Positions 31,698-63,842 of a stretch of 64,000 nt of DNA are shown here, in pieces (position 1 is the stretch's first letter; the number at the start of each line of letters is the position of its first letter). Under the pieces are notes generated by a model that was not told where the DNA came from, did no database searches, and saw nothing but the letters and a program-made list of their open reading frames with translations. The stretch lies in IMG/VR virus record IMGVR_UViG_3300025770_001492, positions 62,001 through 126,000 of that record; one strand, written 5' to 3'. A program made the position numbers and the translations under genes. The DNA is from a virus.

Positions 31698-32519
31698 CTA
31701 TTCCGTTGTAGGAGAAAAAGGAATGTGAATTAAAAACCCTTCGCCTGTCGTTGGAAATCTCCTAACCCATTCGACACCTGATCCTATGGTGCAGCCAAAA
31801 TCAGTAGGCGTAAGACTGCTAGGTGTGAAACTGGGGGTGACAGATGGGGCACTAGATGAAAGAAAGCTCACGCTCTCTTCCATTTTCAAAAGTTTAAATT
31901 CAAACCAATAACAACCAGGAAGACATGTGTTATTGGCGTTCCAATTATATACCAAAAGAGTTTCTAATAACTGGTCTTTTAAAGTTGTTCCGTCTTCCTG
32001 AGTTATGTCTCCCAAAACCAACTCTATAACAGCAGACGCATCCAAAACCCTAAATATCCTCATCGAAGATCCTTTCTTCCATGAAGACTCATTGGTTCCA
32101 TTATATCCTCTCTGAACTTGAATTAACTTATTTGTTTCATCAAATCCAGTCACAAGCATATGCTCAGGAAGTCTAACTCTATCCATGATGATGATGTCGC
32201 CAACCATCACCTGTTCAAACCCAATGTCGTCTGCCAACCTAAAGTAGGTATCAGATGTGTCAATGCTCGTCTTTAACTTAGCAATAGCCCACATGTTTGC
32301 CTCTAACACCAAAGACGTGTCTAGTTCCCCAGTGTCTGGGTCTGTCAAGTCTAAAGGACCATCACAATCATCAGCAGCCAGTCTAAATGGCGGCTTAACA
32401 TCGTGCCTTCTAATGGTAAAATCAGGACAAACATTGGACGGACATCCAAATTTATCTAAACAGTTGGAGTTTGTCGTGAGATCACACGAAACTCCTATTC
32501 TCGCTCCTTGAATACTCAT
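31698..32519 (-). CDS. putative virion (baseplate/tail) protein
   Basis: 273 residues from ATG 32519. Cys pairs near the N-terminus (CLDKFGCPSNVCPDF), a long beta-rich middle (VGDIIIMDRVRLPEHMLVTG, IQVQRGYNGT) and a Ser/Pro/Thr-rich linker before a C-terminal strand block. Similar small Cys motifs occur in the Cys-rich insert of the giant fibre protein, so I infer a virion role; no family was recognised. A TATATA box lies 5 nt before the ATG and there is no SD. Confidence 0.55.
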   Translation of the reverse strand: MSIQGARIGVSCDLTTNSNCLDKFGCPSNVCPDFTIRRHDVKPPFRLAADDCDGPLDLTDPDTGELDTSLVLEANMWAIAKLKTSIDTSDTYFRLADDIGFEQVMVGDIIIMDRVRLPEHMLVTGFDETNKLIQVQRGYNGTNESSWKKGSSMRIFRVLDASAVIELVLGDITQEDGTTLKDQLLETLLVYNWNANNTCLPGCYWFEFKLLKMEESVSFLSSSAPSVTPSFTPSSLTPTDFGCTIGSGVEWVRRFPTTGEGFLIHIPFSPTTE

Positions 32520-32524
32520 ACAAC

Positions 32525-32530
32525 TATATA
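32525..32530 (-). promoter_or_regulatory. TATATA box 5 nt before ATG (leaderless candidate)
   Basis: TATATA then 5 nt then the ATG at 32519; no SD between. Confidence 0.5.
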
Positions 32531-32538
32531 TGGAATAT

Positions 32539-33063
32539 TTATTCAAAAACTCCCAACAACTCCATCTGGGAAACTCTATCTCTGATCCAATTTAAATTTC
32601 CTTCAAATTCTTGAAGGGTTACATTGCCTTTTTTTGCAATCTCTTGTACTTTTTGGATAGAATCAGCACTGTTTAAAGAAGATTTTGAATCTTTAGATTT
32701 ATATGGAAAAAAAATAACTTTATCAATTTTATTTTTAACAATTTTGAGCATGCATTTTTTACACGGCCTAGCAGTAACATAAAGAGTAGAACCATCTAAA
32801 GTTTGAAAGCCCAGTCTGCTAAAATCTATTGCATTTTCTTCAGCATGTTCCACGTAGTCATATTTGTGAGGTCGTTCCCAATTTATATCTTCGTCCTTTA
32901 TCGAAGATGGTGGGCCGTTGTATCCCCAACCCAGTGGACGATTCGAAGAATCTATAATAAAAGCCCCAACCTGTGTATCAGGGTCTTTCGAAAAAGACGC
33001 TGCCCACAGTGCCATGGCCATATATCTTTCATCACGACTAGGTACTGCTCTAGGCTTTTTCAT
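32539..33063 (-). CDS. dCMP deaminase family protein
   Basis: 174 residues from ATG 33063 (SD AAGGG). Zinc site HAEENA and PCKKC, with TQVGAFII upstream, as in deoxycytidylate deaminases. It supplies dUMP for dTTP synthesis during phage replication. C-terminal 50 residues are longer than the minimal domain. Confidence 0.9.
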   Translation of the reverse strand: MKKPRAVPSRDERYMAMALWAASFSKDPDTQVGAFIIDSSNRPLGWGYNGPPSSIKDEDINWERPHKYDYVEHAEENAIDFSRLGFQTLDGSTLYVTARPCKKCMLKIVKNKIDKVIFFPYKSKDSKSSLNSADSIQKVQEIAKKGNVTLQEFEGNLNWIRDRVSQMELLGVFE

Positions 33064-33838
33064 TGTCATCCCTTTCTATAATTCTTTGTTCGAAATCATT
33101 TGGATAAAGAGTAAGAACAAATTGATAATCTAAAGAACTATGATCGATTACAACATTTTCTGTTATGTGTGTTAAACAATGATTTAAAACTTTAGACGGC
33201 TCATAATAAAACAAATCATTAAATCTGAATTGTTTGTGGCCATCACTTCGTTGGTTTGCTCTATCTGACAAGATCGTGACAATGACTCCTTCGTCGCACA
33301 GGTTGAACATTTTTTCAAGAACAGAAAAAAGATATGCGTATTGATTGGGCGAATCAAGCAATCTGAGATTAAAAGTCCCCGCAGCAATTACCCATTCAAA
33401 AGATTTCTCAAATTCTAAATCTAAAAAATCTCCACAGCCAAAGCTAATTCTTGAAGTCGGGATTAGTTCGAGACCTTCCCGATGAGGCAGGGTTTCCCAC
33501 ACGCTTTCTGCCTGCCTCTTCGCTTCTTGTATCACATCCTCAGATATGTCTATTCCTGTATATGTCCAACCGCTTCTTTTATAATGGTTTTTGAACAAAT
33601 AAGGCAAGAAGTCTCCAACCCCGCACCCAACATCCAACACACTGTCATAATTCGTTTGAGACCCTTTAACATTCTTCATAATTACGTCAAAAATTCGACG
33701 CTGGTATCCTGAAGAAGACCAACTTGCAGCTTTCCATCCTGTTGCAGTTTCGTTCTCATTTCCGTTTCTAGAATGAGCAAGTCTGAGATTGTAAAAATTG
33801 TTTATAATCTCGCTTGTACCATTAAACTCAATACTCAT
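33050..33838 (-). CDS. class I SAM-dependent methyltransferase
   Basis: 262 residues. SAM motif I is VLDVGCGVGDFLPYL near 78, motif II-like YTGIDISEDVI, and a later WVIAAGTFNLR strand. Substrate unknown (small molecule, sugar or protein). Overlaps both neighbours, indicating one operon with the deaminase. Confidence 0.8.
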   Translation of the reverse strand: MSIEFNGTSEIINNFYNLRLAHSRNGNENETATGWKAASWSSSGYQRRIFDVIMKNVKGSQTNYDSVLDVGCGVGDFLPYLFKNHYKRSGWTYTGIDISEDVIQEAKRQAESVWETLPHREGLELIPTSRISFGCGDFLDLEFEKSFEWVIAAGTFNLRLLDSPNQYAYLFSVLEKMFNLCDEGVIVTILSDRANQRSDGHKQFRFNDLFYYEPSKVLNHCLTHITENVVIDHSSLDYQFVLTLYPNDFEQRIIERDDNEKA

Positions 33839-34377
33839 TTAATCATTATCTCCGAGAGCTTACACTTATCTTCGGTTTCTCTGGCTATGACAATATAGCG
33901 ATTTTCATTCAGCCAGGATAGTGCTGATTTATTATTGCCCTCAATTAAATGCGGCAAATGAAAAGAAACATTAGAATCAATAAATTTTGTATCTTTCAAA
34001 TCAAAGATATCGCTGCCTTGAAACCAGACTCCCATCCTTATTAAACACCTGCGAATTGCAATATCAGAATAATGATCAGAATAGCCAGTCTGATGTTTAT
34101 AATTAAAAAGAGAATCTATGTCGTGTCTATCATGTACAAAAACGTTGTGTTTAGAAATCAATTCTTTAATCGAAGATATATCATTTCGAAAAAAATTCCA
34201 ATAGGCGTCCTCATACATCTGCATTCCGAATTCCCACGAATACAGTTTAGCTTTGCACCTAAAGGCCCAAAACCAGTTTCCCTTACCGGCTTGCTTGCTA
34301 ACGTTGCCTAAAAATTTATCTCTATTTTTCCCTAAATTTCCCACTTGCAAATAATGAATCAAATCAAAACATTCCAT
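33835..34377 (-). CDS. unknown conserved-looking protein
   Basis: 180 residues, rich in aromatic residues (GNWFWAFRCKAKLYSWEFGM). No domain recognised. Overlaps the preceding membrane-protein gene by 14 nt and the methyltransferase start. Confidence 0.6.
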   Translation of the reverse strand: MECFDLIHYLQVGNLGKNRDKFLGNVSKQAGKGNWFWAFRCKAKLYSWEFGMQMYEDAYWNFFRNDISSIKELISKHNVFVHDRHDIDSLFNYKHQTGYSDHYSDIAIRRCLIRMGVWFQGSDIFDLKDTKFIDSNVSFHLPHLIEGNNKSALSWLNENRYIVIARETEDKCKLSEIMIK

Positions 34378-34687: not shown

Positions 34688-34689
34688 AA

Positions 34690-34884
34690 CTAACCTTTTT
34701 TCTTTTTCTTTTTCTTTTTCTTCTTCTTTTTAGTTAAACTCTCCAACTCAAAAGGCGAAGCAGTTGACCTGCCGTGGACAGAGCCTACAACGGCCAGCGG
34801 CATCAAGCCAAGAGCGGCGGCATGTCTGGCCCTTGTGGATGCACTAGATTCTTTGGTAATTAGCCAATCTTTGAAAGTAATCAT
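34690..34884 (-). CDS. tagged small protein ending in 12 lysines (capsid-internal DNA-binding candidate)
   Basis: 64 residues. N-terminus MITFKDWLITKESSAS fits the capsid-targeting-like pattern with a possible cut after Glu-12. The C-terminus is a run of 12 Lys followed by Gly. After cleavage the peptide would be strongly basic, suiting a head-internal DNA-binding role like T4 internal proteins. TACATA lies 5 nt before the ATG; no SD. Confidence 0.65.
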   Translation of the reverse strand: MITFKDWLITKESSASTRARHAAALGLMPLAVVGSVHGRSTASPFELESLTKKKKKKKKKKKKG

Positions 34885-34889
34885 AAATG

Positions 34890-34895
34890 TATGTA
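34890..34895 (-). promoter_or_regulatory. TACATA box 5 nt before ATG (leaderless candidate)
   Basis: TACATA, 5 nt, then ATG at 34884; no SD. Confidence 0.45.
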
Positions 34896-34965
34896 TTACT
34901 TCAAGATCCCATTATTTATAAAATTGATAAATGCAATTCCGACATTTTTCAATTAGAAATTTATA

Positions 34966-35003
34966 AAAAAACAACCCTTCTAGCTAAAGTAGGGTTGTTT
35001 TTT
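34966..35003. terminator. bidirectional terminator overlapping the stop of 34984-35169
   Basis: 13-bp stem AAAAAACAACCCT/AGGGTTGTTTTTT with a 12-nt loop that contains the TAG of the minus-strand gene. U-runs follow on both strands. Confidence 0.85.
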
Positions 35004-40238: not shown

Positions 40239-40420
40239 TTAGTGTTACCCTTAGTTCTGTACATCTTCGACGCATGTCCGCACTCAGGGCACCTGAACTG
40301 TCTACCCCCGCAATTCTTGCATTTTTTGATTTCTTTAAGATGATCTAGATCTGAAGAAAGTCCGGTAGACTTTTCTGCCCAATTGCAGGCTTTACATTTT
40401 ATAAGAAACCTTTTATCCAT
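40235..40420 (-). CDS. small zinc-ribbon protein
   Basis: 61 residues with three CxxC pairs (CKAC, CKNC, CPEC). Likely binds one or two zinc ions. Its stop overlaps the start of the GT-B-like gene, which also has a zinc-ribbon insert, so the two may work together. TATATT lies 5 nt before the ATG and no SD is seen. Confidence 0.65.
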   Translation of the reverse strand: MDKRFLIKCKACNWAEKSTGLSSDLDHLKEIKKCKNCGGRQFRCPECGHASKMYRTKGNTK

Positions 40421-40425
40421 GAAAT

Positions 40426-40431
40426 AATATA
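40426..40431 (-). promoter_or_regulatory. TATATT box 5 nt before ATG (leaderless candidate)
   Basis: TATATT, 5 nt, ATG at 40420; no SD. Confidence 0.4.
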
Positions 40432-40441
40432 GTTAATAACT

Positions 40442-42901: not shown

Positions 42902-43678
42902 TCAATATGCTTGGCCAGAGGATATAGATTCTGGAGCCGAATGAGATAATTCGTCGCTCAACTTGTCAAGCTTTTCTTTAAGAGACTCCATCTTTTTTTC
43001 CATTGCTTCTGAGCGTTTTCCCAAACCTAACAAAGAATTGATTTTGTCACCCATCTCGTGCAGTTTAGCCTTAGCTTCTTCGATTTTCTCAAGATCTTCT
43101 TCACTATATGTTACTCCCAATTGCTCTGGTTCCAACTCTTGGTCAGGACCAATCGTATTTGGACGGATAGGATTGGGGGATTGCCTTATTGCATCAGCAA
43201 CTTTTTTGATTCCCTCTTTATCAATAACTGACTCTGTGAACACCTCTTTAGGAGCAAGCTCGCCATTCGCAGACATATTGTGAACAGTGTTCCAGTAGTC
43301 AGCATCTCGCTCAGACACGCCATCTGAAGGGTCTGAGTTCGTGGCTCCAAAAAAACTGACGTTTGCAGTTTTTTGGGACGGGACGAAGTGGTTAGGAGCA
43401 TTTTCGAAAACTCCATCGCTTTTTGCCTTTTCCCACTTTTCACACCAATCATCAAAGTCTCCTCTTTGCTCCTGCTCTCTGTCTTGGCCAAAAGAAGGAT
43501 CGAATCCAGCAGAAGAAGAAACAAATGACTCGCTATCTGTCACTTTAGGCTGTGGATTTAAGTTTCCATTTCCATCAGTAATAGCACCTTTGGAAAAGTC
43601 TTCTTCATTCTTCGCTTTGTCCCATTTTTGACACCAATCGGCAAAGTCTTCTCTTTGTTGTTGTTCATAATCTTTCAT
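42902..43678 (-). CDS. unknown protein with a duplicated D-W-C-x-K-W motif
   Basis: 258 residues. Two copies of an 18-residue motif (REDFADWCQKWDKAKNEEDF near 10 and RGDFDDWCEKWEKAKSDGVF near 72) suggest internal duplication. The C-terminal 70 residues are coiled coil. Virion or scaffold function is possible. TATATA lies 6 nt before the ATG, without SD. Confidence 0.6.
   Translation of the reverse strand: MKDYEQQQREDFADWCQKWDKAKNEEDFSKGAITDGNGNLNPQPKVTDSESFVSSSAGFDPSFGQDREQEQRGDFDDWCEKWEKAKSDGVFENAPNHFVPSQKTANVSFFGATNSDPSDGVSERDADYWNTVHNMSANGELAPKEVFTESVIDKEGIKKVADAIRQSPNPIRPNTIGPDQELEPEQLGVTYSEEDLEKIEEAKAKLHEMGDKINSLLGLGKRSEAMEKKMESLKEKLDKLSDELSHSAPESISSGQAY
43347..43376. repeat. intragenic 11-bp inverted repeat with 1-nt bulge
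   Basis: CCAAAAAAACTG (43347-43358) pairs with CAGTTTTTTGG (43366-43376), 7-nt loop. Confidence 0.85.
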
Positions 43679-43684
43679 AATAAT

Positions 43685-43690
43685 TATATA
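43685..43690 (-). promoter_or_regulatory. TATATA box 6 nt before ATG (leaderless candidate)
   Basis: TATATA, 6 nt, ATG at 43678; no SD. Confidence 0.5.
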
Positions 43691-43702
43691 TGGTTTTCGA
43701 GC

Positions 43703-45029: not shown

Positions 45030-47762
45030 TTATATTCCCACTATTGTAAAGCCTTCATCGTTTATATCTTTCAAAAGCTTTTCCTCTGCCTTGGAAGGCT
45101 CATGCTTTATTTCAACTTGTTCCGGTTTAGCCATGACGACGAGTCTGCCATCTGCTGCTTTTTCAGGTAGCTCCGAACGATTTCGTTTGGTCGGACTCTG
45201 AAAAACGTGACTGCTAAATCCGGGATCAGGTCGATTGATCCTCATTCTAAGAAAGTTACCTTGGCGGAATTCTCCGTCCCAATGCTCTATTTCTTCCTTA
45301 AATCTAACAAAATCATCTTCCCACATCGTCACCAGTCTTGTGTTAAAATTTTCATCTTGAACAGTAAAAACATAATAAGGATTTCCCTTTTTAGAAAGCC
45401 TCTCCTGTAATGATGACTCCTTTTTAGGAAGCCCTTTTTTATCCAAGCTTACTATCTGACATTCAATTGGTGCCCAAAGCAAGGTTGATTCCTCATCAAA
45501 ACGGTCAAAAGTCATTCCGCCTTTATAGTCAGGGCTGAACTCTATAGGATGCTGCCATGCGAATCCATAATACATCGATTCTGCAATGCCTAGCAACTCG
45601 TTGTAAACATTTTCAAATCCCGTGTCGATTTCTCCAGAAGGCATAAAATCAGCAAGAGTGATTGGCAGATCAGAATCTTTCTTCTTCTTCAAAGATTCGA
45701 CGTTTCTCTTGTACTTCTTTCCAATCTTTAAAATGTCTTCCAAATCATCTTTTAAGTGTTGGAAATTAAAATTCTCAAATTCAAATTCAGAAATGAAGAA
45801 ATCTTTCTTAGGCAAATCTAATAAACCGCTTTTCAGAATCTCTTTTAAAAAGTTTTCAGAGGAACCATCGCCCCCATTCTTGTAAAGAACGTAGTCCATC
45901 TCTTCTACAATTTTTAATTTAGATTTATCCGCACGCTTATCTCTGTCCTGACGCTTTTTTGTTTCATGTTTAAAGTACTCCCAAAATTCATGGAGCACCT
46001 TTCTGTCTTCCTCTTCTCCGAAGCAATTTAAGGCAATCAAAGGCTTTAGAACTTTTGAATCTGTGCCAAATCTTTGCAAGAAGTCATCAAATCCACTGTA
46101 TGGCTGTCCTTCCTCGATCTTATGAGAGACATCTTCCCCTATTCCCTTAATGTCAGAGAAGCCCATATAGACCAAATCATCAACAATTTCCCAGTTCCAA
46201 CCTGATTTGTTGATGTCTACCCTTTTTAGCTCTACACCATCTTTCTCTGCCTCAAGTTTGTAATCTTTAATTTTACCTGACTGGGTTTCGCATTGCAAAG
46301 TTCCACAATAAAACTCAATTGGAAAATGTGCCTTCAAGTAAAGAAGCCTAGACGAAATATAAGAATATGCGTAAGCGTGGCTTGCGTTAAATCCGTACTC
46401 TGAAAAAGCTTCCACTTGATCCCACAGTTCTTCAACTTCTTTCTTTTCCCAGCCGAGATTTGATTGCCCACGACCAACGAACTGCTCTTTATATCGAGCA
46501 AACTCCTTAACCTTTTTCTTACTCATTGCTTTTCTGACTTTTTCGCAATGAATAAGCGGAATGTCTCCCACGACATTCAAAATTTTCATAACCTGTTCTT
46601 GGTAAACCATAACTCCATATGTTCTGCCAAGAATTGGCCTGAGAATCGGATGCAAATCTCCATCCATGTCTGGAACTGGATTACTAACAGGCTCTTGTCC
46701 TCTTTTTCGCCTGATGTACGTTTTATCCATGTCCATATTAAGAGGGCCGGGTCTGTACAGAGCAGAATAAGCAGGTAAATCATCAAACCCTGTTACACCG
46801 CCTTTTTTAACCATCTCACGCATTCCATTAGAATCAAACTGGAAAATGCACTTTAGCTTTCCTTCATCCGCTAAAGCAATTGCTTTAGGGTCATTCAGAT
46901 AGGCAGTATCAGACCAATCGTCATCCGTGCCATCCAAAGCAGATATTGTCTTTATGTGAGGATGATTCCTTTTGACTAACTCGCTGATGGTTACAATTCT
47001 TTTCAAATCCGTAACAACCAAGAGGTCAAATTTAATCAAACCCAAAGGGCCTAAGTCGGTTCCAGACAGCCCTTCCACAAATGCAGAAACATAAGCGTCG
47101 TCTTTGCCCTTAACCAGTGGAACCAGTTTATTGATTCTTTGATCAGAAATGATTAGCCCACCAGCATGCATTCCCATTCCACGATTGCGATTTAAAAGCC
47201 TACGGGCAGCGTCTGCAACATCTGGATTGTCTTCGCAATATTTGCCCAATTTCTCAAATTGCTCTAAAGCTTTATCGAAAGTAAGAGTCTTGCCATCATT
47301 ATCTTTCAAGCCAAGCTGAGTGGTTAGTCCTATAATTTCATTTCGATCCTTATCATGGACCTTGGCCATATCAATTAAAGAACTTTTTATTCCGTAAGTT
47401 GTGTAGTTGCCAATTGCGCAAACATTTTCTTTTCCAAACTCTTTCGGTGCCCACTCAACCTTTAGATAATCACGAACTTGAGGTAAGTAATCTATATCAA
47501 TATCTGGAAACTCGCCCTGTACAGAAACTGGTGGCAAATTTATGTCGAAATCATCGACCAAGTCTAAAAGATAAGCAATTAAAAGATTGTTTTCATTGTT
47601 TTCAAATTTAGCTTTTTTAGAATGAAGATCTACAAAATACTCATGTTCCGCCTGAGCATCAAGCTCTTTAAGCTCCTCTCTTAATCGCTCTTTATATTCA
47701 GAAGAATCTAAGCCCTTTTTGGACATTCCTTCCACGCAAAGTTTTAGTAGTTGATCTCTCAT
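45030..47762 (-). CDS. dnaE: DNA polymerase III alpha, C-terminal part (palm to OB region)
   Basis: 910 residues. Catalytic palm motif PDIDID at 86-91 carries two of the three Asp; LIKFDLLVVTDLKRI supplies the third. Further matches: TYGVMVYQEQVMKI, NASHAYAYSYISSRLLYLKAHFP, a helix-hairpin-helix region and a C-terminal OB-type domain (PYYVFTVQDENFNTRLV). It lacks the PHP domain and the PGRGS loop, which are in the separate gene at 52260-53919. Its first 45 residues (LLKLCVEGMSKKGLDSSEYK...) repeat a block also present in the N-terminal gene, so the split looks like duplication followed by complementary loss. Confidence 0.93.
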   Translation of the reverse strand: MRDQLLKLCVEGMSKKGLDSSEYKERLREELKELDAQAEHEYFVDLHSKKAKFENNENNLLIAYLLDLVDDFDINLPPVSVQGEFPDIDIDYLPQVRDYLKVEWAPKEFGKENVCAIGNYTTYGIKSSLIDMAKVHDKDRNEIIGLTTQLGLKDNDGKTLTFDKALEQFEKLGKYCEDNPDVADAARRLLNRNRGMGMHAGGLIISDQRINKLVPLVKGKDDAYVSAFVEGLSGTDLGPLGLIKFDLLVVTDLKRIVTISELVKRNHPHIKTISALDGTDDDWSDTAYLNDPKAIALADEGKLKCIFQFDSNGMREMVKKGGVTGFDDLPAYSALYRPGPLNMDMDKTYIRRKRGQEPVSNPVPDMDGDLHPILRPILGRTYGVMVYQEQVMKILNVVGDIPLIHCEKVRKAMSKKKVKEFARYKEQFVGRGQSNLGWEKKEVEELWDQVEAFSEYGFNASHAYAYSYISSRLLYLKAHFPIEFYCGTLQCETQSGKIKDYKLEAEKDGVELKRVDINKSGWNWEIVDDLVYMGFSDIKGIGEDVSHKIEEGQPYSGFDDFLQRFGTDSKVLKPLIALNCFGEEEDRKVLHEFWEYFKHETKKRQDRDKRADKSKLKIVEEMDYVLYKNGGDGSSENFLKEILKSGLLDLPKKDFFISEFEFENFNFQHLKDDLEDILKIGKKYKRNVESLKKKKDSDLPITLADFMPSGEIDTGFENVYNELLGIAESMYYGFAWQHPIEFSPDYKGGMTFDRFDEESTLLWAPIECQIVSLDKKGLPKKESSLQERLSKKGNPYYVFTVQDENFNTRLVTMWEDDFVRFKEEIEHWDGEFRQGNFLRMRINRPDPGFSSHVFQSPTKRNRSELPEKAADGRLVVMAKPEQVEIKHEPSKAEEKLLKDINDEGFTIVGI

Positions 47763-47798
47763 ATGAAATTTATAACCTAAATCAATTACATTTGCAAC

Positions 47799-49577: not shown

Positions 49578-49581
49578 TCAG

Positions 49582-49937
49582 TGGACCGGACGGGAGTCGA
49601 ACCCGTGTGTTGCGCTACCTATTCAAAAGCGTCTACCTGTATAGTTTGATGTTTGAGTTTCGCATCATTAAACCACAACAAACAAAGGTTTAAATCAACT
49701 ATCAAACAACGAGTCTTAGTTCAAAAGTAGTTTGATTTGCTTTGAACGCATCCAGTATTGCGGCAAGTTGTCAAACGTCACTGGCAGACCTTTGAAACTT
49801 GGGCTACTTATAATTAAGCAGCCATAGCGAAATTAGTTTTGTCAACTAAATTTTTAATCGGATTTTTAAGGAGCCTTCCGATCAACTCCTACAGGCAACT
49901 CAAGAACTCAACAGCCAATCGATACCATTTCCAGCCC
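49582..49937 (-). ncRNA. ssrA: transfer-messenger RNA (tmRNA)
   Basis: 356 nt. 5' GGGCTGG pairs with 3' CCGGTCC (two G-U pairs) to form the acceptor stem; the 3' part has a canonical T-arm (ACGGGTTCGACTCCCGT). The tag frame starts with a resume codon GAC after TAGTT (49843) and reads DKTNFAMAA then TAA (49814), so the tag ends AMAA rather than the usual ALAA. CCA is not encoded. It rescues stalled ribosomes and marks the products for proteolysis. Own terminator follows. A ClpP-like gene lies nearby. Confidence 0.95.
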
Positions 49938-49984: not shown

Positions 49985-50305
49985 CTAATTTTTATGAGCA
50001 TCTGCCCATTTTGAATCTTCTGGAATGTCGTGTGTTTTGACGTAATCTCGCCACTTTTCATATCCATAAAGATCGATATATTCGCCTCTTCTTAGAGATC
50101 TTTTTTCTTCTGCCTGCTTGAGAATCTTTTTCCTATCTTGATCAAGCTTTGGATAATCGGCACGACCAGATTGCTGCGATGCTGCTGTATTCGCCCTCTT
50201 TAGCTTCTTTTCAAAAGATTTACTAGTTTTTCTCAACTCTTCCCGTCCTTCTAAGAACTTAGAAAAATTCATAAAATATTCAGTCTGTTTGTTGTGTGAT
50301 TTCAT
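49985..50305 (-). CDS. tagged protein, unknown (capsid-internal candidate)
   Basis: 106 residues from ATG 50305, or 95 from ATG 50272 (MNFSKFLEGREELRK), which has the capsid-targeting-like pattern. Lys/Arg-rich and probably DNA-binding or disordered. TATATA lies 5 nt before the ATG at 50305; the same box serves the divergent gene at 50322. No SD. Confidence 0.6.
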   Translation of the reverse strand: MKSHNKQTEYFMNFSKFLEGREELRKTSKSFEKKLKRANTAASQQSGRADYPKLDQDRKKILKQAEEKRSLRRGEYIDLYGYEKWRDYVKTHDIPEDSKWADAHKN

Positions 50306-50310
50306 ACTAT

Positions 50311-50316
50311 TATATA
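50311..50316. promoter_or_regulatory. shared palindromic TATATA between two divergent start codons
   Basis: TATATA with exactly 5 nt to the minus ATG at 50305 and 5 nt to the plus ATG at 50322; no SD for either gene. Confidence 0.6.
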
Positions 50317-50321
50317 CCAGC

Positions 50322-50963
50322 ATGGTAAAAATATATTCCAACATATTTCCAGGAAAAATCACTGGCAGCGAATTCTGGAACAGGAATGGCCACTTAAATG
50401 ACACCATCTGCTTTCTAAATGATTATTACAAATTTAATTTTTTATGTATACCCAAAAATGCCTCGAACACCATACGTAAAGAGCTTAATTCCAAAAGAGA
50501 AAAACTATTTTCCAAACTGAACAAGGATGAACAACTTTATCCAATTATCTGCTTTGTAAGACCTGTGGATGATAGATTTTGGTCTGCTGTCAATACTATT
50601 TTGAGAAGAAAAAACGGCAGCACTAGAATGTTTTTAAGAAACTGCGATAGTATCGAGAAATTAGCAGATTACATTGCCTCCGGTAACGACCCGCACCTTG
50701 CATCCGTTTCCGTCTTAACATCAAACATAAAACACACGGACATACGTTGGTATGATTTGAAGGTTTTAGACCAACTTAACATTTGCCACCCAAGCATAAA
50801 TCGCAATTTTGACACTTTAGACACATTGAAGCAGCTTGACATATTTGGATCAAAAAAAATCCAATCTTATTATGAAAAAGATTTTGAAATTTATGAAAAC
50901 TCAAAAAAAGAGATTGAAAACATTAAGTTGAAGAAGTTATGTCATAAAAAAAGCCTGTTTTAA
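50322..50963 (+). CDS. sulfotransferase-like protein
   Basis: 213 residues from ATG 50322. IPKNASNTIRKEL resembles the 5'-phosphosulfate-binding loop and FVRPVDDRFWSAVN the 3'-phosphate-binding segment of carbohydrate sulfotransferases, in the right order and spacing. It would move sulfate from PAPS to a sugar or peptide. Assignment is by motif memory only. Its stop codon is inside the terminator hairpin. Confidence 0.5.
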   Translation: MVKIYSNIFPGKITGSEFWNRNGHLNDTICFLNDYYKFNFLCIPKNASNTIRKELNSKREKLFSKLNKDEQLYPIICFVRPVDDRFWSAVNTILRRKNGSTRMFLRNCDSIEKLADYIASGNDPHLASVSVLTSNIKHTDIRWYDLKVLDQLNICHPSINRNFDTLDTLKQLDIFGSKKIQSYYEKDFEIYENSKKEIENIKLKKLCHKKSLF

Positions 50964-51871: not shown

Positions 51872-51927
51872 AATATACTCCTGTTTTATATTTAGTGTAT
51901 TATGTGCTTTTTTTTTAAAGCATAAAG

Positions 51928-51933
51928 TATATA
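51928..51933 (+). promoter_or_regulatory. TATATA box 4 nt before ATG (leaderless candidate)
   Basis: TATATA, 4 nt, ATG at 51938; no SD. Confidence 0.5.
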
Positions 51934-51937
51934 TTGT

Positions 51938-52258
51938 ATGCAATTCAGAAAATGGCTAATAAAAGAAATGGCTCACATATCAATTGATGAACCAATCGAC
52001 ATTGGAGATCAAAAAAATGTATCTATGATTGATATGCAGTTTGAACTATATCCCGACATGACCCAGACAACTCTAGCTCACTGGATAGTCAACGGATTTG
52101 CCGCCAAAGTCCCAAATAGCAATTATTATATAGTTTTTGACGGAAAAACAGGAAAAGCAAAGGTGTCCGATTCGACAGAGAACAAAATGCAAGTTCCTGG
52201 CGAATGGCACAAAATGGCTTATATGTCGAGCGATATGCCAGCTTGGAAATCTGCGTGA
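51938..52258 (+). CDS. tagged protein, unknown (capsid-internal candidate)
   Basis: 106 residues. N-terminus MQFRKWLIKEMAHISI fits the capsid-targeting-like pattern with a possible cut after Glu-10. The rest is a small beta-rich domain (NYYIVFDGKTGKAKVSDS). TATATA at 51928-51933, 4 nt before ATG, no SD. Confidence 0.65.
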   Translation: MQFRKWLIKEMAHISIDEPIDIGDQKNVSMIDMQFELYPDMTQTTLAHWIVNGFAAKVPNSNYYIVFDGKTGKAKVSDSTENKMQVPGEWHKMAYMSSDMPAWKSA

Positions 52259-55458: not shown

Positions 55459-57051
55459 CTATAGCGATTCGTATTCTTCTCTGGTCATGACGGCCACATC
55501 GCCATCCTGTGTTCCTACGCACCAATAAACTATTTCTTCGTCATCGGAACCAGTAGTAGACAACACCACATCATTCCCCCAAATGAATCTTAAAGACTTT
55601 AAAGTGGGGATTAAATCCGGCTCATACAAGCCTCTGCCATCGGAGTTGTGCTCTAGCAACATGACTCCCTTGCCTTGGTGGTTTGGATCTACTAGATATA
55701 TCTCTGGCAAGCCTCCATTCAAATGTCTTTTGATCAACTTACTTTTGATTGACTTGTGGTCACGATTTTCAATCTTGTACTCGCCATTTGGATATCTTTT
55801 CCATTCAAAAAACTCATATTTATTACAAAAATCTTCTGTGAAAAACTCCATCAAAGCTGTTAGGTCATTATATTGCTTTCGAACATCAAATATTTTATCT
55901 CTGCCTAGACCTAGATTCTTATCCCAATTTTCTTTTTCTACTATATTGCTACATTCTTCGTACTCTTGGCCAAACTTGCCTTTATTCCACCTCTCTTCGA
56001 TATCCAACAAAAGACAGAATCCTAGCTTATAAGGATTCATCGAATACTTGCCTCCGAGAACGCCCATCTTGTGAGCGGAGTATTCAACGATGCCGCAGTC
56101 TTCGCCTGTCTGCCCTAAGCCACAAAGTCCCATTTCACACATTACTGTATAATCTGTAAAGCTTGCCCATCCTTCGTTGAGCATTTTTGTAACTCTTTGA
56201 GGCGAAAAATATAAACTTTCCTCATACATCATGGAAAGAATGTCTGACTGCCAAGGTTTCAAAGGAGCACTATCTCTTAAAAATCCCATAATGTCTTTAG
56301 TTGGATTTTTAAATATTCCAATTTGCTGTGCGGCCTCATCTCGACTAATCTTTTCTTTTTGGCCATCAATCCATCTTTTAGGATTGATATAAGGCTCCAT
56401 GTAATCACGGTCAGAATTTACACCTAACCTTTTAGGCTGCTTGTAGGTTCTCTCATCTTGTATGACACGATCTTTTACAACCTTTTCTTCCCAAGCCTTC
56501 GCTGAGTCTATCAAAGTTTCAATCGAGCAGCAGTGGTCGATAAATTCTGTAACTTTCTCCACGCCCCAACGCTGCATGTATTTTCGGATGCGGGTTCCAT
56601 GATTAGCAAGTTGGTTCATCATATTTTGCGAGGTGGGCGCAAAATATATGTTGTTCTTAAAAAAGTCATTGTGGCCTAAAGCGTGAGCAATAACCGTAAC
56701 ATTATCCACCAGCGTATTTGAATCCAAACAGTAGATGTAACAAGGATTGGTATTAATAACCATTTCATAAATTCGGTGCATCCCATGCTCGTAACCTTTT
56801 TGAAGGCTTTCGTATTCCATTCCCCATTTCCAGTGTGGGTAACGAACTGGAAATCCTCCGTAAGATGCAACTTCACTTATTTCATCGTAAGTCAGCATCT
56901 GAACAACGGTGGGATAAAAATCGCAGCCGAAGTCTTTAACTGCCTTGAATATGTCAGGCATAATCTTCTTAAGCTCACTAGGAAGCTGAACGCCTGGCAC
57001 AGTGCTGTCACCGAGAAGCAGAGAAGAGCCTCTGAAAAATTTACTAGACAT
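55459..57051 (-). CDS. spoVR: SpoVR/YcgB family protein
   Basis: 530 residues, full length. Characteristic blocks: DFYPTVVQMLTYDEISEVASYGGFPVRYPHW, the GYEHGMHRIYEMVINTNPCYIY segment and YKLGFCLLLDIEERWNKGKFG (given in parts). In bacteria it is linked to sporulation or stress and co-occurs with YeaH and PrkA, as here. Its biochemical role is not established. Confidence 0.92.
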   Translation of the reverse strand: MSSKFFRGSSLLLGDSTVPGVQLPSELKKIMPDIFKAVKDFGCDFYPTVVQMLTYDEISEVASYGGFPVRYPHWKWGMEYESLQKGYEHGMHRIYEMVINTNPCYIYCLDSNTLVDNVTVIAHALGHNDFFKNNIYFAPTSQNMMNQLANHGTRIRKYMQRWGVEKVTEFIDHCCSIETLIDSAKAWEEKVVKDRVIQDERTYKQPKRLGVNSDRDYMEPYINPKRWIDGQKEKISRDEAAQQIGIFKNPTKDIMGFLRDSAPLKPWQSDILSMMYEESLYFSPQRVTKMLNEGWASFTDYTVMCEMGLCGLGQTGEDCGIVEYSAHKMGVLGGKYSMNPYKLGFCLLLDIEERWNKGKFGQEYEECSNIVEKENWDKNLGLGRDKIFDVRKQYNDLTALMEFFTEDFCNKYEFFEWKRYPNGEYKIENRDHKSIKSKLIKRHLNGGLPEIYLVDPNHQGKGVMLLEHNSDGRGLYEPDLIPTLKSLRFIWGNDVVLSTTGSDDEEIVYWCVGTQDGDVAVMTREEYESL

Positions 57052-57056
57052 ATTTT

Positions 57057-58289
57057 TTATCCTTGAATCTTCTTTTCTATTAAACCCGGTTTTCCTAATA
57101 AATCAATAATTGCTTCTCTGATTTTTACGTCTCTTTCTTCCTCTGAAATTTCAGAAGCAGGCCCCCAACTAGATACATTGTCTTCTGAGTCAGACATTAT
57201 ATCTGTGGTCACAACGTTAGAAGGAGGGCTTTCCGACATTAAAACATTCTCATCTACATATTCTTTCAAGCTTCCCTTGTATCTCCAAGGCAAAATTTGA
57301 GCTATTCCTATAAAGTTGACAATATCTTCTGTGAATTGATCTTTTATTATTTTTGAAAAGACTTCGTTGTCATTGTCCCAGTTTTCCCCGTCAGTAAAAT
57401 AAATTACGTACACATTCCACTTTTCAGGAGGAAACCTATTTTCCATCTGCTTTGAAATTAATTTCAAAGCAGATGAACATGTTGTTCCACCACCATATCG
57501 GTATTTATAGAATCTTTTCTCATCAACTTCCGAAGCTTCTGTGTCGTGCCAAATATAACATCTTTCGACACGTTTATAAAACTGCCTTATCCATAAATCT
57601 ATCCACCAAGACATATCGCTAACAATATCACACTTTGTCTGGTCCATTGAAGCAGATCCATCACGAGCGAAAAATATAACAGCATTGCTCGATGGAACTT
57701 TTATTTCTTTATATCGCCTATACCTGCGATCACTGTTTATCGGCATGATCATTTTTACAGGCTCCTTCATGCCGGGAATGGCATGGAGTTTTTCCAATTC
57801 TCCAGAAGCAGCCATTCTCTTCATGGCTTGCTGCATAGTTCTTCGATTGTGCCTTAAGGATTCTGGACCTTGTAATGAAATATCATTGTATTTAATTTTA
57901 ATTTCATCATAAGTTTGATTTGGCTTTGGCTTTAAATCAGGAAGTTCTAATTCATCCTGAAGAAATTTTAAAACATCTTCCAAGTCTATGGATATAGTAA
58001 CGCCATCAGATTGTCCTTGTCCTGCCTTGCCCTTGCCTTTTCCATCGCCTGGATCATCTCTCCCAACTACGTCTCCAGGTTTTCCACCGCCACGTCCGAC
58101 TCCCTCGCCACTATTCCCATAAACAATATGTGGTATGTCTATTTTTGGGATTGTGATGTTTATCTTTTTCCCATCTCCACGAGTTCTAAATATAGATCCG
58201 TTTTTAATCCTCTTTTGAAGATCTTTTCTTATTCGGCCAGAATAAACATCTCTAAATCTTTTGTGGTCTTCTTCAATACGTCTTGGCAT
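57057..58289 (-). CDS. yeaH: YeaH/DUF444 family (von Willebrand A-like) protein
   Basis: 410 residues from ATG 58289 (SD AAAGGG). MPRRIEEDHKRFRDVYSGR is the family start; a Gly-rich linker (about 55-90) precedes a vWA-like domain with MIDAS FARDGSASM near 210 and YGGGTTCSSALKLI. A partner of PrkA and SpoVR. Contains a 32-nt perfect palindrome (57444-57475). Confidence 0.9.
   Translation of the reverse strand: MPRRIEEDHKRFRDVYSGRIRKDLQKRIKNGSIFRTRGDGKKINITIPKIDIPHIVYGNSGEGVGRGGGKPGDVVGRDDPGDGKGKGKAGQGQSDGVTISIDLEDVLKFLQDELELPDLKPKPNQTYDEIKIKYNDISLQGPESLRHNRRTMQQAMKRMAASGELEKLHAIPGMKEPVKMIMPINSDRRYRRYKEIKVPSSNAVIFFARDGSASMDQTKCDIVSDMSWWIDLWIRQFYKRVERCYIWHDTEASEVDEKRFYKYRYGGGTTCSSALKLISKQMENRFPPEKWNVYVIYFTDGENWDNDNEVFSKIIKDQFTEDIVNFIGIAQILPWRYKGSLKEYVDENVLMSESPPSNVVTTDIMSDSEDNVSSWGPASEISEEERDVKIREAIIDLLGKPGLIEKKIQG
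57444..57475. repeat. 32-nt perfect palindrome inside yeaH
   Basis: CATCTGCTTTGAAATT (57444-57459) is followed immediately by its exact reverse complement (57460-57475), within the coding frame. Confidence 0.95.
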
Positions 58290-58318
58290 TACTGAACCCT
58301 TTAGTAGTCTAAAATAAA

Positions 58319-58351
58319 GAGCCACCCCCACAAAGAAGTGAAGAGTGGCTC
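58319..58351 (-). terminator. attenuator-like hairpin between prkA and yeaH
   Basis: GAGCCAC/GTGGCTC 7-bp stem with a long loop, then TTTATTTT on the minus strand, between the prkA stop (58365) and the yeaH SD. May set the prkA:yeaH ratio. Confidence 0.6.
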
Positions 58352-58364
58352 ATCCTCTTTATAT

Positions 58365-60479
58365 CTAGGAGTCGTTAGCTACATCGCCTCTTGCAAATAT
58401 AGAACCAACATAATCAAGAACATCCGTTGCGGATTTTTCGTTATATCCATGATGCTTAATCAAGCGGGACTTAATTGCATCAATTTTTTCTTGAACGTCT
58501 GGATCAACTACAGAGGCACCAAGAGAATTTAAAGCAGAAAGCTTTATGTGATCTCTAGTGTCTTCGAATAGTTTGGTTTGCAAAGCCTTTTGCAACTGTG
58601 GGTTACTATCCCACTTAAAGGTTTTGCTTTCATGGGCAAGATTTCCAATGAAAGCTGCCAAACTTCTGCGGAAGTCGTCAGAGCCAACTTCTGGAACATC
58701 AATTTTTTCTTCAATCGATCTCATCAACTGCTCATCTGGCAACTGTTCCTGTCCTGTGTACGGATTGGTCACTTTTGCCTTTTTAATGTATGCCATCACG
58801 TTATCGACATAATTAGTACAAAGTCTAATAATGGCATTCTCATCACCAACAAGTGCTTTTTGAACTTCTGTTTTCAAAATCTCATCTAGCTCTTTCATAG
58901 CAAAATCAACACAAGTGTTAAACCTACTTGCGTCCTCTTGATTAGAGATCAAAGAAGATCCGTCAAGTCCTTCACGAATTTCATTCAGCACCATGAATGG
59001 ATTGATGTAATCATGGTGAGAACTCAAACAGTTAGAAATCTTGTCCTGAACATATCGAGCAGAGACTCCGCCAGACATCCCTTCATTTGGATATTTATCT
59101 CGCATTTCTTTTACTGAATCTTCAGTCCAGCCAGGCATTGATTTTCCATCATAAAGCTTTGACTTCTCTACCAAAGAAATTTTGCCATCTTTATCATCTT
59201 GCAATCTTGTCAAAACCGCCCAAAGAGCGGCAATCTCTAAAGTATGAGGAGCAACATGCTGAGGAACTTTACTTTTGCCGTAATCGTTCTGATAAACTTT
59301 AAGTTCATCAGAAAGACTTAAAAGATATGGAACATCGATCTTCACAGTTCTATCACGCAAGGCTTCCATGCTTTGATTGTTCTTGAGTTTTTCATACTCA
59401 GGATTATTTGTATGCCCAATTAAGACTTCATCGACCCCAATCTGAGCGAACTTTTTCGGCTTTATGCTTCGCTCTTGAGACGCTCCCAAAAGATCGTACA
59501 AAAACTCTTGAGCAAGCTTCAGCATCTCAATAAATTCAACAACACCACGATTCCCCACACAAAACTCACCATCAAAGTTGAAAGCTCTAGGATCACTATC
59601 AGATCCAAAGTGAGGAAGCTTCGCATAATTGATGTCACCAGTTAGCTCAGTAGCATCTTGATTCTTTTCGTCTTTAGGTTGAAAAGTTGCAATCCCGCAT
59701 CTGTCTGCTTCAGAATAAACTTTTCTCACAACAACAATGTGCTCGTCAACAACCTTTCTCCAATCACCCTTGTGTATTTTCAAAAGTTCATCCATAAACT
59801 TTTTACATCTCGGATTAAGCTCCCCGTCGCAACGGAGTTCGTATGTTTGCTCTCCTTGAGGGTGATTCCCAAACTCTGCCTTTACTTCATTCAAATCTTT
59901 GAGAAGTTCTGCTCGTACTTTCATGGGCACTAACTTAATGGGATCGTCATGCATCGGACAATCATCAGAATCATTTGTATAAATTCCATCGGACCCTGTT
60001 GGAAGGTTTTTCCAACGGTATGTATACCAAGCACCTTGGTCTGTTTGAGAGTATTCTTCCATGCCTCTTTTGATAAGTCGGCAAATTGTAGACTTAGACG
60101 AACCTACTGGCCCGTGGAGAAGAAGAATTCTTTTTTCGGTTCCGTACCAACCGGCAGCACCCCGAATAAATTTAACCAATTCATGTAGAGTATTGTCCAA
60201 ACCATAAATTGGAATTTCATCATTATCAAAGAAGTTATAATGGATATAGGTTTTTCGATACTTTTTAAACTCAGAAGTTCCAGCATTCATGATCATATCA
60301 TAAACTCGCTGGTAAGCTGATCGGACTAAGCCTGGACTTTTATAACAACTATCAATGTACTCAGAAAAAGTCATTTCCTGATTAAGTGTTTGAAATTTAC
60401 CAGTATCAAAAAATCCAGCAAGCTTGTCTAGCTTAGAAGTGCCTTCATGCTCTTCCTTGTTGAAATTTTCATTTTCCAT
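58365..60479 (-). CDS. prkA: PrkA/YeaG serine protein kinase
   Basis: 704 residues. N-terminal MTFSEYIDSCYKSPGLVRSA and NFFDNDEIPIYGLDNTLHEL, an AAA-like P-loop GPVGSSKST near 130, AQIGVDEVLIGHTNNPEY, RTVKIDVPYLL and SARYVQDKIS. All are typical of PrkA. In E. coli YeaG acts with YeaH in starvation responses. About 60 residues longer than E. coli YeaG. SD AGGAAC. First gene of the prkA-yeaH-spoVR group. Confidence 0.92.
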   Translation of the reverse strand: MENENFNKEEHEGTSKLDKLAGFFDTGKFQTLNQEMTFSEYIDSCYKSPGLVRSAYQRVYDMIMNAGTSEFKKYRKTYIHYNFFDNDEIPIYGLDNTLHELVKFIRGAAGWYGTEKRILLLHGPVGSSKSTICRLIKRGMEEYSQTDQGAWYTYRWKNLPTGSDGIYTNDSDDCPMHDDPIKLVPMKVRAELLKDLNEVKAEFGNHPQGEQTYELRCDGELNPRCKKFMDELLKIHKGDWRKVVDEHIVVVRKVYSEADRCGIATFQPKDEKNQDATELTGDINYAKLPHFGSDSDPRAFNFDGEFCVGNRGVVEFIEMLKLAQEFLYDLLGASQERSIKPKKFAQIGVDEVLIGHTNNPEYEKLKNNQSMEALRDRTVKIDVPYLLSLSDELKVYQNDYGKSKVPQHVAPHTLEIAALWAVLTRLQDDKDGKISLVEKSKLYDGKSMPGWTEDSVKEMRDKYPNEGMSGGVSARYVQDKISNCLSSHHDYINPFMVLNEIREGLDGSSLISNQEDASRFNTCVDFAMKELDEILKTEVQKALVGDENAIIRLCTNYVDNVMAYIKKAKVTNPYTGQEQLPDEQLMRSIEEKIDVPEVGSDDFRRSLAAFIGNLAHESKTFKWDSNPQLQKALQTKLFEDTRDHIKLSALNSLGASVVDPDVQEKIDAIKSRLIKHHGYNEKSATDVLDYVGSIFARGDVANDS

Positions 60480-60600
60480 GAGAAGTTCCTATTCTATAAT
60501 TTCGAAAGTTTGGAGAGTTTGGAGATTCTTGTTCCCGAATATAAAAGAGTATAAGACCTTCTAGAATTATGATCAATGCTAATTTGTTTGATAAATTATT

Positions 60601-60969: not shown

Positions 60970-60971
60970 TT

Positions 60972-61286: not shown

Positions 61287-61299
61287 CCTTTCCTCCATC

Positions 61300-61830: not shown

Positions 61831-61912
61831 GTTTTAATTTAGTTACCAGTGTAAATTTTCAATAACTAAATAAACTACTTAGACTTACAATCGCAGTGAC
61901 TGCTTTATTGCT

Positions 61913-62116
61913 TTATTCCTTTGATTCATCTTCTATCAATTCTCCAGATTCAGCATCAACGATAGCAAAATCAGAAACATCCATTTTCAATGTTTCTACA
62001 TACTCTGCACATGCAGCGAGCATTTCTTTCGCTTCTTCAACATCAGAAGTAAACCACAATCCAACTTGAGGATGCTTTAAGGTTCTGCCTGTCTTTTTAT
62101 TCAATAAAGTATACAT
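61913..62116 (-). CDS. small unknown protein
   Basis: 67 residues from ATG 62116, which overlaps the TGA of the upstream gene (TGATG). Acidic C-terminus; GLWFTSDVEEAKEMLAACAE is a likely helix. Not recognised. Confidence 0.55.
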   Translation of the reverse strand: MYTLLNKKTGRTLKHPQVGLWFTSDVEEAKEMLAACAEYVETLKMDVSDFAIVDAESGELIEDESKE

Positions 62117-62508
62117 CAACCTATATTAGTATCAGGCGATGGAACTTGAACCGTTGAGTTAGCATTATTTTGAGCTTGTCCAAATTGTTGAGGCTGACCT
62201 ATGCCGCCGCCACGAACCGAACCAGATTTTGGCGTCGAGGGTGGGGACATATTAGAAGCAGGGGGAACAGGATTCGGCTGAGTGCCGGGACTCATGTTTG
62301 AAGCTGGTCTTTTGTTGTTTGTTTGCAATTTGTCAGACACATTAAATGCCGATCTGGGCTTTTTAGAACTATTTAAATTATCTTGAGGATTGATGCCTGC
62401 CATTTGTGGATTAGCAGGTGCTACAGGGCTTTCTCCTGCCCTTCCTGCTGCGTTCATTCCTGTGGCACTTGCTCCCGTGCCTTGCTCAAGCCATTTTCTG
62501 AATTCCAT
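62116..62508 (-). CDS. tagged, disordered Pro/Asn/Ser-rich protein (capsid-internal candidate)
   Basis: 130 residues. N-terminus MEFRKWLEQGTGASATG fits the tag pattern; the rest is low-complexity with repeats of PASNMSP. TACATA lies 5 nt before the ATG. Divergent from the HNH gene with only 14 nt between the start codons. Confidence 0.6.
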   Translation of the reverse strand: MEFRKWLEQGTGASATGMNAAGRAGESPVAPANPQMAGINPQDNLNSSKKPRSAFNVSDKLQTNNKRPASNMSPGTQPNPVPPASNMSPPSTPKSGSVRGGGIGQPQQFGQAQNNANSTVQVPSPDTNIG

Positions 62509-62513
62509 ACTAT

Positions 62514-62519
62514 TATGTA
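62514..62519 (-). promoter_or_regulatory. TACATA box between divergent start codons
   Basis: TACATA, 5 nt, ATG at 62508 on minus; on plus the overlapping TATTAT is 6 nt before ATG at 62523. Confidence 0.45.
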
Positions 62520-62522
62520 GAT

Positions 62523-62801
62523 ATGGGACGTAAAAAAACGCTAATCAACAAGAAAAACAAGAAAAGATTAGAAAGCTGTGCTTTTTGCGAATGTGCAGAC
62601 TATGAAATTTTAGATGTCCACAGAATAAACGAAGGAGCAGACGGAGGAAGATATACCAGTCACAACTCCTTGACTGTCTGTGCAAACTGCCATCGGAAAA
62701 TTCATTCTGGAAAAATAAAAACATTCAGAAAGCATCTAAGCACTGGCGGATATGTCCTTCATTGTGAAATCGAAGGACAAGAACAGTTTTTGAAACTATG
62801 A
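62523..62801 (+). CDS. HNH endonuclease-like protein
   Basis: 92 residues. CAFCECADYEILDVHRINEG ... NSLTVCANCHRKIHSG is a zinc-bound HNH motif (two CxxC, DVH, N, H). It could be a free-standing homing endonuclease, perhaps related to intron spread, or a packaging-linked HNH. No SD; leaderless-type start. Confidence 0.8.
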   Translation: MGRKKTLINKKNKKRLESCAFCECADYEILDVHRINEGADGGRYTSHNSLTVCANCHRKIHSGKIKTFRKHLSTGGYVLHCEIEGQEQFLKL

Positions 62802-63062
62802 TTACTTCTTTGCGTTATTGTCAGGCAAAAATTTTGCTGCATCGGCTGGCTTTAGCTGGCCGCTATCGATTGCTTTTATAACATTATTTTTTACAGCATC
62901 TTTTACGGCTTTAGAATCTCCACCACTTTTGATTGTTTTTGTGGTGTCTGCTTTAATTTGCTGGCTCAACTGAGAATTCTCTGCGTCCTTTTCCGCATTG
63001 CCCTGTTGTCCCACTTCCATCTCTTTAAGAGATACCCATTTTTCAAAAGAATAATTATTCAT
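62802..63062 (-). CDS. tagged small protein (capsid-internal candidate)
   Basis: 86 residues. MNNYSFEKWVSLKEMEVGQQ fits the tag pattern with possible cut after Glu-14; the remainder is Lys/Ala/Asp-rich and helical (AVKDAVKNNVIKAIDSGQLK). TAGATA-like box 6-7 nt before ATG; no SD. Its stop abuts the end of the HNH gene. Confidence 0.6.
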   Translation of the reverse strand: MNNYSFEKWVSLKEMEVGQQGNAEKDAENSQLSQQIKADTTKTIKSGGDSKAVKDAVKNNVIKAIDSGQLKPADAAKFLPDNNAKK

Positions 63063-63119
63063 AGTAATTTATCTATGTTTGAAGCGTAAATATTTAAAAC
63101 TTTATTTAAGGATGGATAA

Positions 63120-63305
63120 ATGAAAAAAATACTAACTTTACTAATTTTGGGAATGTGTTTTTCCCTAACTGGATGCTCTTCCGACGACTCTTCCTGCTGC
63201 TGTGAGGGGGATAAATGCCATTGTGTGGATATCGGTGCCTGCTGCTGTGAAGAAGGCAAATGCAAAATAGAATGTGATTGCGAAGGATGCGATTGCAGCA
63301 AATAA
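63120..63305 (+). CDS. cysteine-rich (metallothionein-like) lipoprotein
   Basis: 61 residues. Lipoprotein signal peptide with lipobox LT-G-C (Cys at 19), then 13 further Cys in 42 residues as CCC, CxC and CxxC groups (SSCCCEGDKC, GACCCEEGKC, CDCEGCDC). The pattern is that of a metal-binding peptide held on a membrane surface. SD AAGGAT. Not a known metallothionein family that I recognise. Confidence 0.75.
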   Translation: MKKILTLLILGMCFSLTGCSSDDSSCCCEGDKCHCVDIGACCCEEGKCKIECDCEGCDCSK

Positions 63306-63327
63306 ACGTTGCGCAGACCACATAGCA

Positions 63328-63831
63328 TCAAATAGGTTTCAACCTCGCCATAAACTCTATCTCTTCTATCATGGCGACAACGCCTTCTTTAATCAAGTCA
63401 TCTACGGCTGTCTCTACTCCGAACCTTTTTCCGGGTCGCTGTAGATGATCCTTGTAGTCGTGACACAATATATCCTTAGCTCCACATCTAATTGATCCTA
63501 ATATATCCCTCTTCACAACCTCTGCATCGTGGTTGCCATCAATAAAAGCAAAATCTATTGATTCAGTAGTGGATTCAAAAAAATTATCACTAGACATGTG
63601 ATGAACAATACAATTGGTTAATTTCCTTGCTTTTATTCCAGCTACGAAAGCTGCCTTCCATTCTTCAATAGGCCATATATCGACACAATGAATTTTGCCG
63701 TTGCATATTTCAGCCATTGGAAAAATTGATGCACCTTGATATACGCCTATGTTGACTATATTCTGATAATTGTTTTCTTTGACAATCTCAGCCATTATTT
63801 GATATTGCTTATTTGAGCATTTTCCTCTCAT
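63328..63831 (-). CDS. class I SAM methyltransferase-like protein (Methyltransf_24 type)
   Basis: 167 residues from ATG 63831. NIVNIGVYQGASIFPMAEI is a SAM-motif-like turn and SIDFAFIDGNHDAEVVKRD the second-strand block seen in Methyltransf_24 proteins next to glycan genes. TATATA lies 5 nt before the ATG; no SD. Confidence 0.7.
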   Translation of the reverse strand: MRGKCSNKQYQIMAEIVKENNYQNIVNIGVYQGASIFPMAEICNGKIHCVDIWPIEEWKAAFVAGIKARKLTNCIVHHMSSDNFFESTTESIDFAFIDGNHDAEVVKRDILGSIRCGAKDILCHDYKDHLQRPGKRFGVETAVDDLIKEGVVAMIEEIEFMARLKPI

Positions 63832-63836
63832 GCCAG

Positions 63837-63842
63837 TATATA
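63837..63842 (-). promoter_or_regulatory. TATATA box 5 nt before ATG (leaderless candidate)
   Basis: TATATA, 5 nt, ATG at 63831; no SD. Confidence 0.5.

Follow-up and report, generated by a model that had tools for sequence, protein, structure and literature searches.

The window analysed here is a 64,000-nucleotide (nt) stretch covering bases 62001-126000 of the 245,522-base virus record IMGVR_UViG_3300025770_001492 (G000), a phage whose genes include a tmRNA, IF-3, a DnaE-type polymerase, PrkA, SpoVR and bS21, and in which no phage copy of the RNA polymerase beta subunit was detected. Our subject is a class of genes without a Shine-Dalgarno (SD) sequence in which an A/T-rich word nearly abuts the start codon. 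A sequence-only reading of the window had listed nine such genes, with TATATA, TACATA or TATATT 4-6 nt before the ATG, and we find hexamer, spacing and ATG in place at all nine, two of which (50322 and 51938) lie on the plus strand; with the IF-3 gene as a tenth site, a C or T stands immediately 5′ of every one of these ATGs. A short tag (MEFRKWLEQ, MNFKEWLITE, MFRNWIENK) is common at the N-terminus of class proteins; we take it to resemble the capsid-targeting leaders of T4. For comparison we used G001 (a diverged relative of 320 kb), LR756511 (a 595-kb phage, of which 250 kb was taken), the fragment G002 and 63 non-redundant related contigs obtained by scanning for relatives of the neck protein; G000, G001 and the contigs represent uncultured phages and several of the comparisons draw on partial genomes. 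G003 was uninformative, its ortholog proteins being at least 99% identical.

Among the stronger candidate leaderless promoters in the window is CATATATA + GTTGT + ATG (32519..32537, minus strand), which precedes a 273-amino-acid (aa) gene with a weak tail-protein match (31698..32519, minus); the LR756511 ortholog of this gene (49-50% identity) also carries AATATATA + 5 nt + ATG. The same word recurs as CATATATA + ATTATT + ATG (43678..43697, minus) before a 258-aa gene (42902..43678, minus), the orthologs of which belong to the class in LR756511 and carry a TAGATATT-type word in G002. At 50305..50322 a single TATATA box appears to serve divergent starts in both directions (CAT-ACTAT-TATATA-CCAGC-ATG, 5 nt to each start, 50305 on the minus and 50322 on the plus strand), an arrangement that recurs in relatives; to its left lies a 106-aa open reading frame (ORF) with a tag-like MNFSKFLEG at residue 12 (49985..50305, minus) and to its right a 213-aa ORF (50322..50963, plus) for which no relative was found among the loci compared. 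Further putative promoters are AGTATATA + TTGT + ATG (51921..51940, plus) before a 106-aa tagged gene (51938-52258, MQFRKWLIKEMA), TCTACATA + ATAGT + ATG (62508..62526, minus) before a 130-aa tagged gene (62116-62508, MEFRKWLEQG) and ACTATATA + CTGGC + ATG (63831..63849, minus) before a 167-aa methyltransferase-like gene (63328-63831).

Weaker candidates are AATACATA + CATTT + ATG (34884..34902, minus), where a 64-aa ORF with the tag-like start MITFKDWL has no detected relative, and AACTATATT + ATTTC + ATG (40420..40438, minus), where LR756511 and G002 both retain the 61-aa cysteine-rich ORF without an obvious copy of the word. The DnaE-type DNA polymerase gene (45030-47762) may also belong here, with TATAAATT + TCAT + ATG (47762..47778, minus), its G002 and LR756511 orthologs having an SD instead. 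The IF-3 gene (TCTAAATA + AAAAT + ATG, 29973..29991, minus) does have the reported TAAATA at 5 nt but is a doubtful member, as the TAA is the stop codon of the gene at 29982..31613 and the G001 and LR756511 orthologs lack the word, and it probably falls outside the class.

Across G000, 13 of 364 start-like ATGs have one of the three hexamers 4-6 nt upstream, versus 3 of 1,271 internal in-frame ATGs, an excess over chance; as the start-like set pools predicted with alternative upstream starts, we relied instead on held-out and positional tests. Gene starts are predictions of a simple in-house caller that initially rewarded SDs, and starts were assigned as SD or SD-less by simple rules. A weight matrix trained on the window sites only and applied to the rest of the genome found 8 matches among 253 starts at a distance of 5 nt, where internal ATGs would predict 0.2. 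TATATA is a real signal but too narrow a description of it: the true word is the 8-mer TATAWATA, for which the TATATA-only reading was dropped, and the words before SD-less genes include TATAAATA, CATAAATA, AATAAATA, TATATATA and similar forms. With up to one mismatch allowed, TATAWATA peaks 5 nt before the SD-less starts of G000, while SD starts have no match at 0-10 nt and a scattered excess farther upstream. The class is not confined to 32519-63842, as first described, but is spread over the whole 245-kb genome, and its spacing, given as 4-6 nt, does peak at 5 nt but extends from 3 to 8 nt. Unsupervised motif discovery in the upstream regions of genes without an SD returned only A-rich tracts with no positional peak.

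The same arrangement is found in the relatives. The word lies 2-8 nt before 22/194 SD-less starts in G000, 56/252 in G001, 22/234 in LR756511 and 3/23 in G002, compared with 7/1271, 32/1311, 8/1226 and 0/231 internal ATGs, respectively, and neighbouring distance bins are also lower. It is absent from the late regions sampled in T4, GAP32 and Syn9, with counts of 0/25, 1/36 and 1/33; the T4 region has 26 word matches in 31 SD starts, at 9-29 nt. In the 63 contigs, the matches before SD-less starts at distances of 3, 4, 5, 6, 7 and 8 nt number 42, 21, 62, 22, 17 and 17, other positions having about 9 each; with the strict word and a single distance assigned to each gene these become 6, 30, 71, 19, 13 and 10, the apparent excess at 3 nt having come from shifted matches inside TATATATA. 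At least one gene of the class occurs in 56 of the 63 contigs, SD starts there show a plateau at 14-32 nt, and internal ATGs are flat. Of 66 orthologs of the neck gene, 35 carry the word at 2-8 nt from the start and 16 have an SD, several of the latter combining AAGGAGG with the word a short leader upstream (for example CATATATACACAAGGAGGAATACAAATG); both arrangements thus substitute for each other in one gene.

The leadered arrangement is also present in the window. A perfect TATAAATA lies 30 nt upstream of the ATG in two genes, the 543-aa gene at 29982-31613, with AAGGAG (31613..31650, minus), and the gene at 6315-6599, with AGGAGGT (6599..6636, minus); in the gene at 24530-24874, AATAAATA lies 28 nt upstream, with GAGGT (24874..24909, minus). 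The class is distinct in that it is separate from the SD genes and lacks an SD, but its word is not special to it, as the same word would drive SD genes from 12-32 nt upstream.

If transcription starts at the A of the ATG, a pyrimidine at -1 followed by that purine at +1 is the initiator signature expected of RNA polymerase. The -1 base played no part in gene selection, and it is a pyrimidine in 16/16 class genes of G000, 29/33 of G001 and 15/18 of LR756511, compared with about half of other starts; in these three genomes the base preference is limited to position -1. The contigs agree (105/118 class genes vs 305/576 others, p = 1e-14), and the excess of pyrimidine over purine is greatest with the word at 5 nt (80:4) and weakens away from it, being 35:5 at 4 nt, 19:10 at 6 nt and 8:8 at 8 nt. 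After leadered words the signature was looked for and is weak. Because the class sets of genomes and contigs were defined by SD absence, the fair test of the missing SD is its frequency by word distance: with the word at 3-5 nt the SD fraction is 0.02, rising to 0.06 for 6-8 nt and to 0.58-0.75 for 12-35 nt, whereas starts that lack the word have 0.38.

No -35 element is enriched in G001 or LR756511 (TTGACA matches of 3.16 vs 3.11 and 3.00 vs 2.99). In both genomes class genes more often lie behind a divergent neighbour (18/33 vs 66/325 in G001, p = 5e-5; 10/18 vs 52/341 in LR756511, p = 2e-4), and some divergent pairs have one short box, TATATA or TATATATA, between start codons ∼16-23 nt apart. 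Divergent pairs with a common TATATA-type box and starts 17-22 nt apart include those in contigs L058 (23532-23554), L142 (9979-10001), L078 (2521-2543), L136 (5507-5524) and L015 (7234-7251).

We consider it likely that these are T4-type late promoters giving leaderless or near-leaderless mRNAs in huge phages. The T4 late promoter TATAAATA spans -13 to -6 (PMC1524935), so with a gap of 5 nt the A of the ATG falls on the T4-type +1; in the late region of T4 itself, 9 of 12 words are followed by an A at base 6. TATAWATA without a -35 would then act as a T4-type late promoter sited so that transcription starts at the A of the ATG or no more than about 3 bases away, the transcript would be leaderless or nearly so, and its translation would proceed without an SD. 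In other genes of the same phages the same promoter would lie 12-32 nt upstream and yield a short leader with an SD. The proposal of the sequence-only reading, that a -10-type element abutting the ATG starts transcription at or next to it, is hence supported in silico by spacing, -1 pyrimidine and SD exclusion. The neck protein, tail-like and tagged proteins among the class members hint at late timing.

The likeliest reader of this word would be the host RNA polymerase core together with a conserved gp55-like phage sigma factor containing only region 2. G000 has three sigma-like genes, two inside the window and a third at record 201460-202005. The two window genes, which had been proposed to support the class, were not found in G001, even though G001 has the same promoter architecture; the third, which lies outside the window and consists of sigma region 2 only, is conserved, with orthologs in many contigs as well as in G001 (45%) and LR756511 (65%). 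It matches phrog_234 at 6.5e-8, as does its LR756511 but not its G001 ortholog, and T4 gp55 matches the same family at 2.9e-69. Its AlphaFold2 model is helical (pLDDT 84, pTM 0.69), and the Foldseek matches listed are structures of sigma domain 2, all with E > 0.1; searches of PDB sequences with it gave nothing significant. We conclude that it is a sigma factor and probably, though not certainly, one of the gp55 family. Region-2-only sigma genes with a near-invariant EYLNNK motif at the start occur in at least 167 viral contigs (including L147-L226).

Several results weigh against a T4-type late promoter. T4 gp55 (7d7c) is missing among the Foldseek matches listed, and a direct profile comparison of the third sigma with T4 gp55 was not significant. 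The sliding-clamp families PF09116 and PF02768 were not found in G000 and G001, PF09116 being silent in controls too. Class membership turns over, as only 1 of 102 orthologs between G000 and G001, 2 of 61 between G000 and LR756511 and 3 of 72 between G001 and LR756511 are shared members. In G000 there is a slight resemblance to a -35 (TTGACA, 3.48 vs 3.09 matches) and no excess of divergent neighbours, 14 of its 16 class genes lying behind a same-strand neighbour, so that SD-less read-through mRNA could occur as well.

That -35 resemblance, two further sigma70-like genes in G000 and the overlap of TATAWATA with TATAAT would fit a word that is the -10 of the host sigma70 or of the two other phage sigma70-like factors, the genes being leaderless but not of the gp55 late type. 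We give this a slim chance, since G001 and LR756511 have no -35 signal, the two other sigmas are not found in G001 whereas the region-2-only sigma is conserved, and the conserved element is an 8-mer at T4 spacing rather than TATAAT. Slimmer still is the prospect that the A/T-rich word is a translation signal, an unstructured or bS1-binding stretch in longer transcripts, and no promoter at all: many bacteria have A/T-rich start regions in SD-less genes and many G000 class genes closely follow a same-strand gene, but such a signal accounts poorly for the sharp 5-nt spacing, a pyrimidine preference limited to -1, the presence of this word 12-32 nt before SD genes and in T4 at the known promoter position, or the excess of class genes behind divergent neighbours in two genomes.

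A/T-rich intergenic DNA together with start-codon prediction might mimic the enrichment, given the A/T-richness of these phages and a simple start caller that at first rewarded SDs, but we see next to no chance of such an artefact. The held-out test, the neighbouring-position controls and the contig counts contradict it, the same peak appears in the G+C-richer LR756511 (42% G+C), and conserved N-termini of the neck protein fix its start codon. An extension of the T4-type late promoter model, in which one promoter word in two positions, against the start codon for leaderless mRNAs or 12-32 nt away with an SD leader, would form a translation-mode switch, often with a palindromic TATATATA common to two genes with starts only ∼16-23 nt apart and with IF-3 and bS21 setting the balance, strikes us as rather unlikely as a whole.

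IF-3 and bS21 had also been proposed as support for the class, and bS21 is indeed encoded by G000 and three relatives. In most assays IF-3 reportedly inhibits the translation of leaderless mRNA, some results conflicting (PMC9031893), and phage phiYS40, which produces leaderless middle and late mRNA, reportedly raises IF2 and lowers IF3 (PMC3594737). These reports leave IF-3 an unproven helper of the class, and its effect could be the reverse of support.

The named class members include the neck protein, tail-like proteins, a PAP2/ArdC-N protein, a methyltransferase-like protein and DnaE. The suggested enrichment of the class for tagged proteins is supported in G001 (15/33 vs 36/335, p = 3e-6) and LR756511 (6/18 vs 20/346, p = 8e-4), marginal in G000 (strict class 4/16 vs 27/285, p = 0.07; loose class 8/32 vs 24/269, p = 0.011) and absent from the pooled neck-gene contigs (p = 0.24). 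Together the named members and tag counts indicate a class in which likely virion genes are over-represented but to which other genes belong as well. The PAP2/ArdC-N protein, 659 aa with the tag MFRNWIENK, a PAP2 and an ArdC-N (anti-restriction) domain, lies at record 171905-173884 (L013:7905-9884, plus) behind CATAAATA + 7 nt + ATG, and could be a capsid-carried, injected anti-restriction protein.

Elsewhere in the window, genes for a PrkA kinase, a DUF444 (YeaH-like) protein and SpoVR cluster at 55459-60479 and resemble a bacterial stress operon. The 543-aa gene at 29982-31613 is conserved in LR756511 (53%) and matches thiamine-pyrophosphate enzymes annotated as indolepyruvate decarboxylase or acetolactate synthase, and the tmRNA gene (49581-49937, minus) has the predicted tag DKTNFAMAA.

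The proposed architecture offers a testable reason for the SD-less late-type genes of huge phages, a lack of SDs that has been raised as a general point (PMC7162821). From it, exact transcription starts can be predicted for many genes of uncultured phages; it also provides a route to phage promoters and corrected start codons from sequence alone, and it opens to direct test what phage-encoded translation factors do. Late promoters of the T4 type and leaderless phage mRNAs are known separately; a conserved architecture that joins the two did not turn up in the open-access literature, to which our search was confined, most subscription journals lying outside its scope.

In huge phages that encode bS21, this protein has been linked to late-stage expression (Chen et al. 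2022, PMC9723584), a study in which promoters and leaderless genes go unmentioned. The window's phage and three relatives share bS21 with those phages but, unlike them, the window's phage uses many SDs. A leaderless class of later genes, as proposed here, has been described in Thermus phage phiYS40 (PMC3594737); that system is reported to act with more IF2 and less IF3 in the host, whereas the phage described here encodes IF-3 and bS21. The closest parallel is the late promoter of T4 (gp55/gp33/gp45), which shares the TATAAATA-type word without a -35, a phage-encoded region-2-only sigma, the use of the host core (as proposed here) and a similar word-to-ATG distance in SD genes. Counterparts of the T4 clamp and gp33 were not identified, no search aimed at gp33 having been made. 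In contrast to T4, the first base of the word is here often C or A, and a large class of genes has the word 2-8 nt from the ATG, a position it never takes in the sampled T4 late region.

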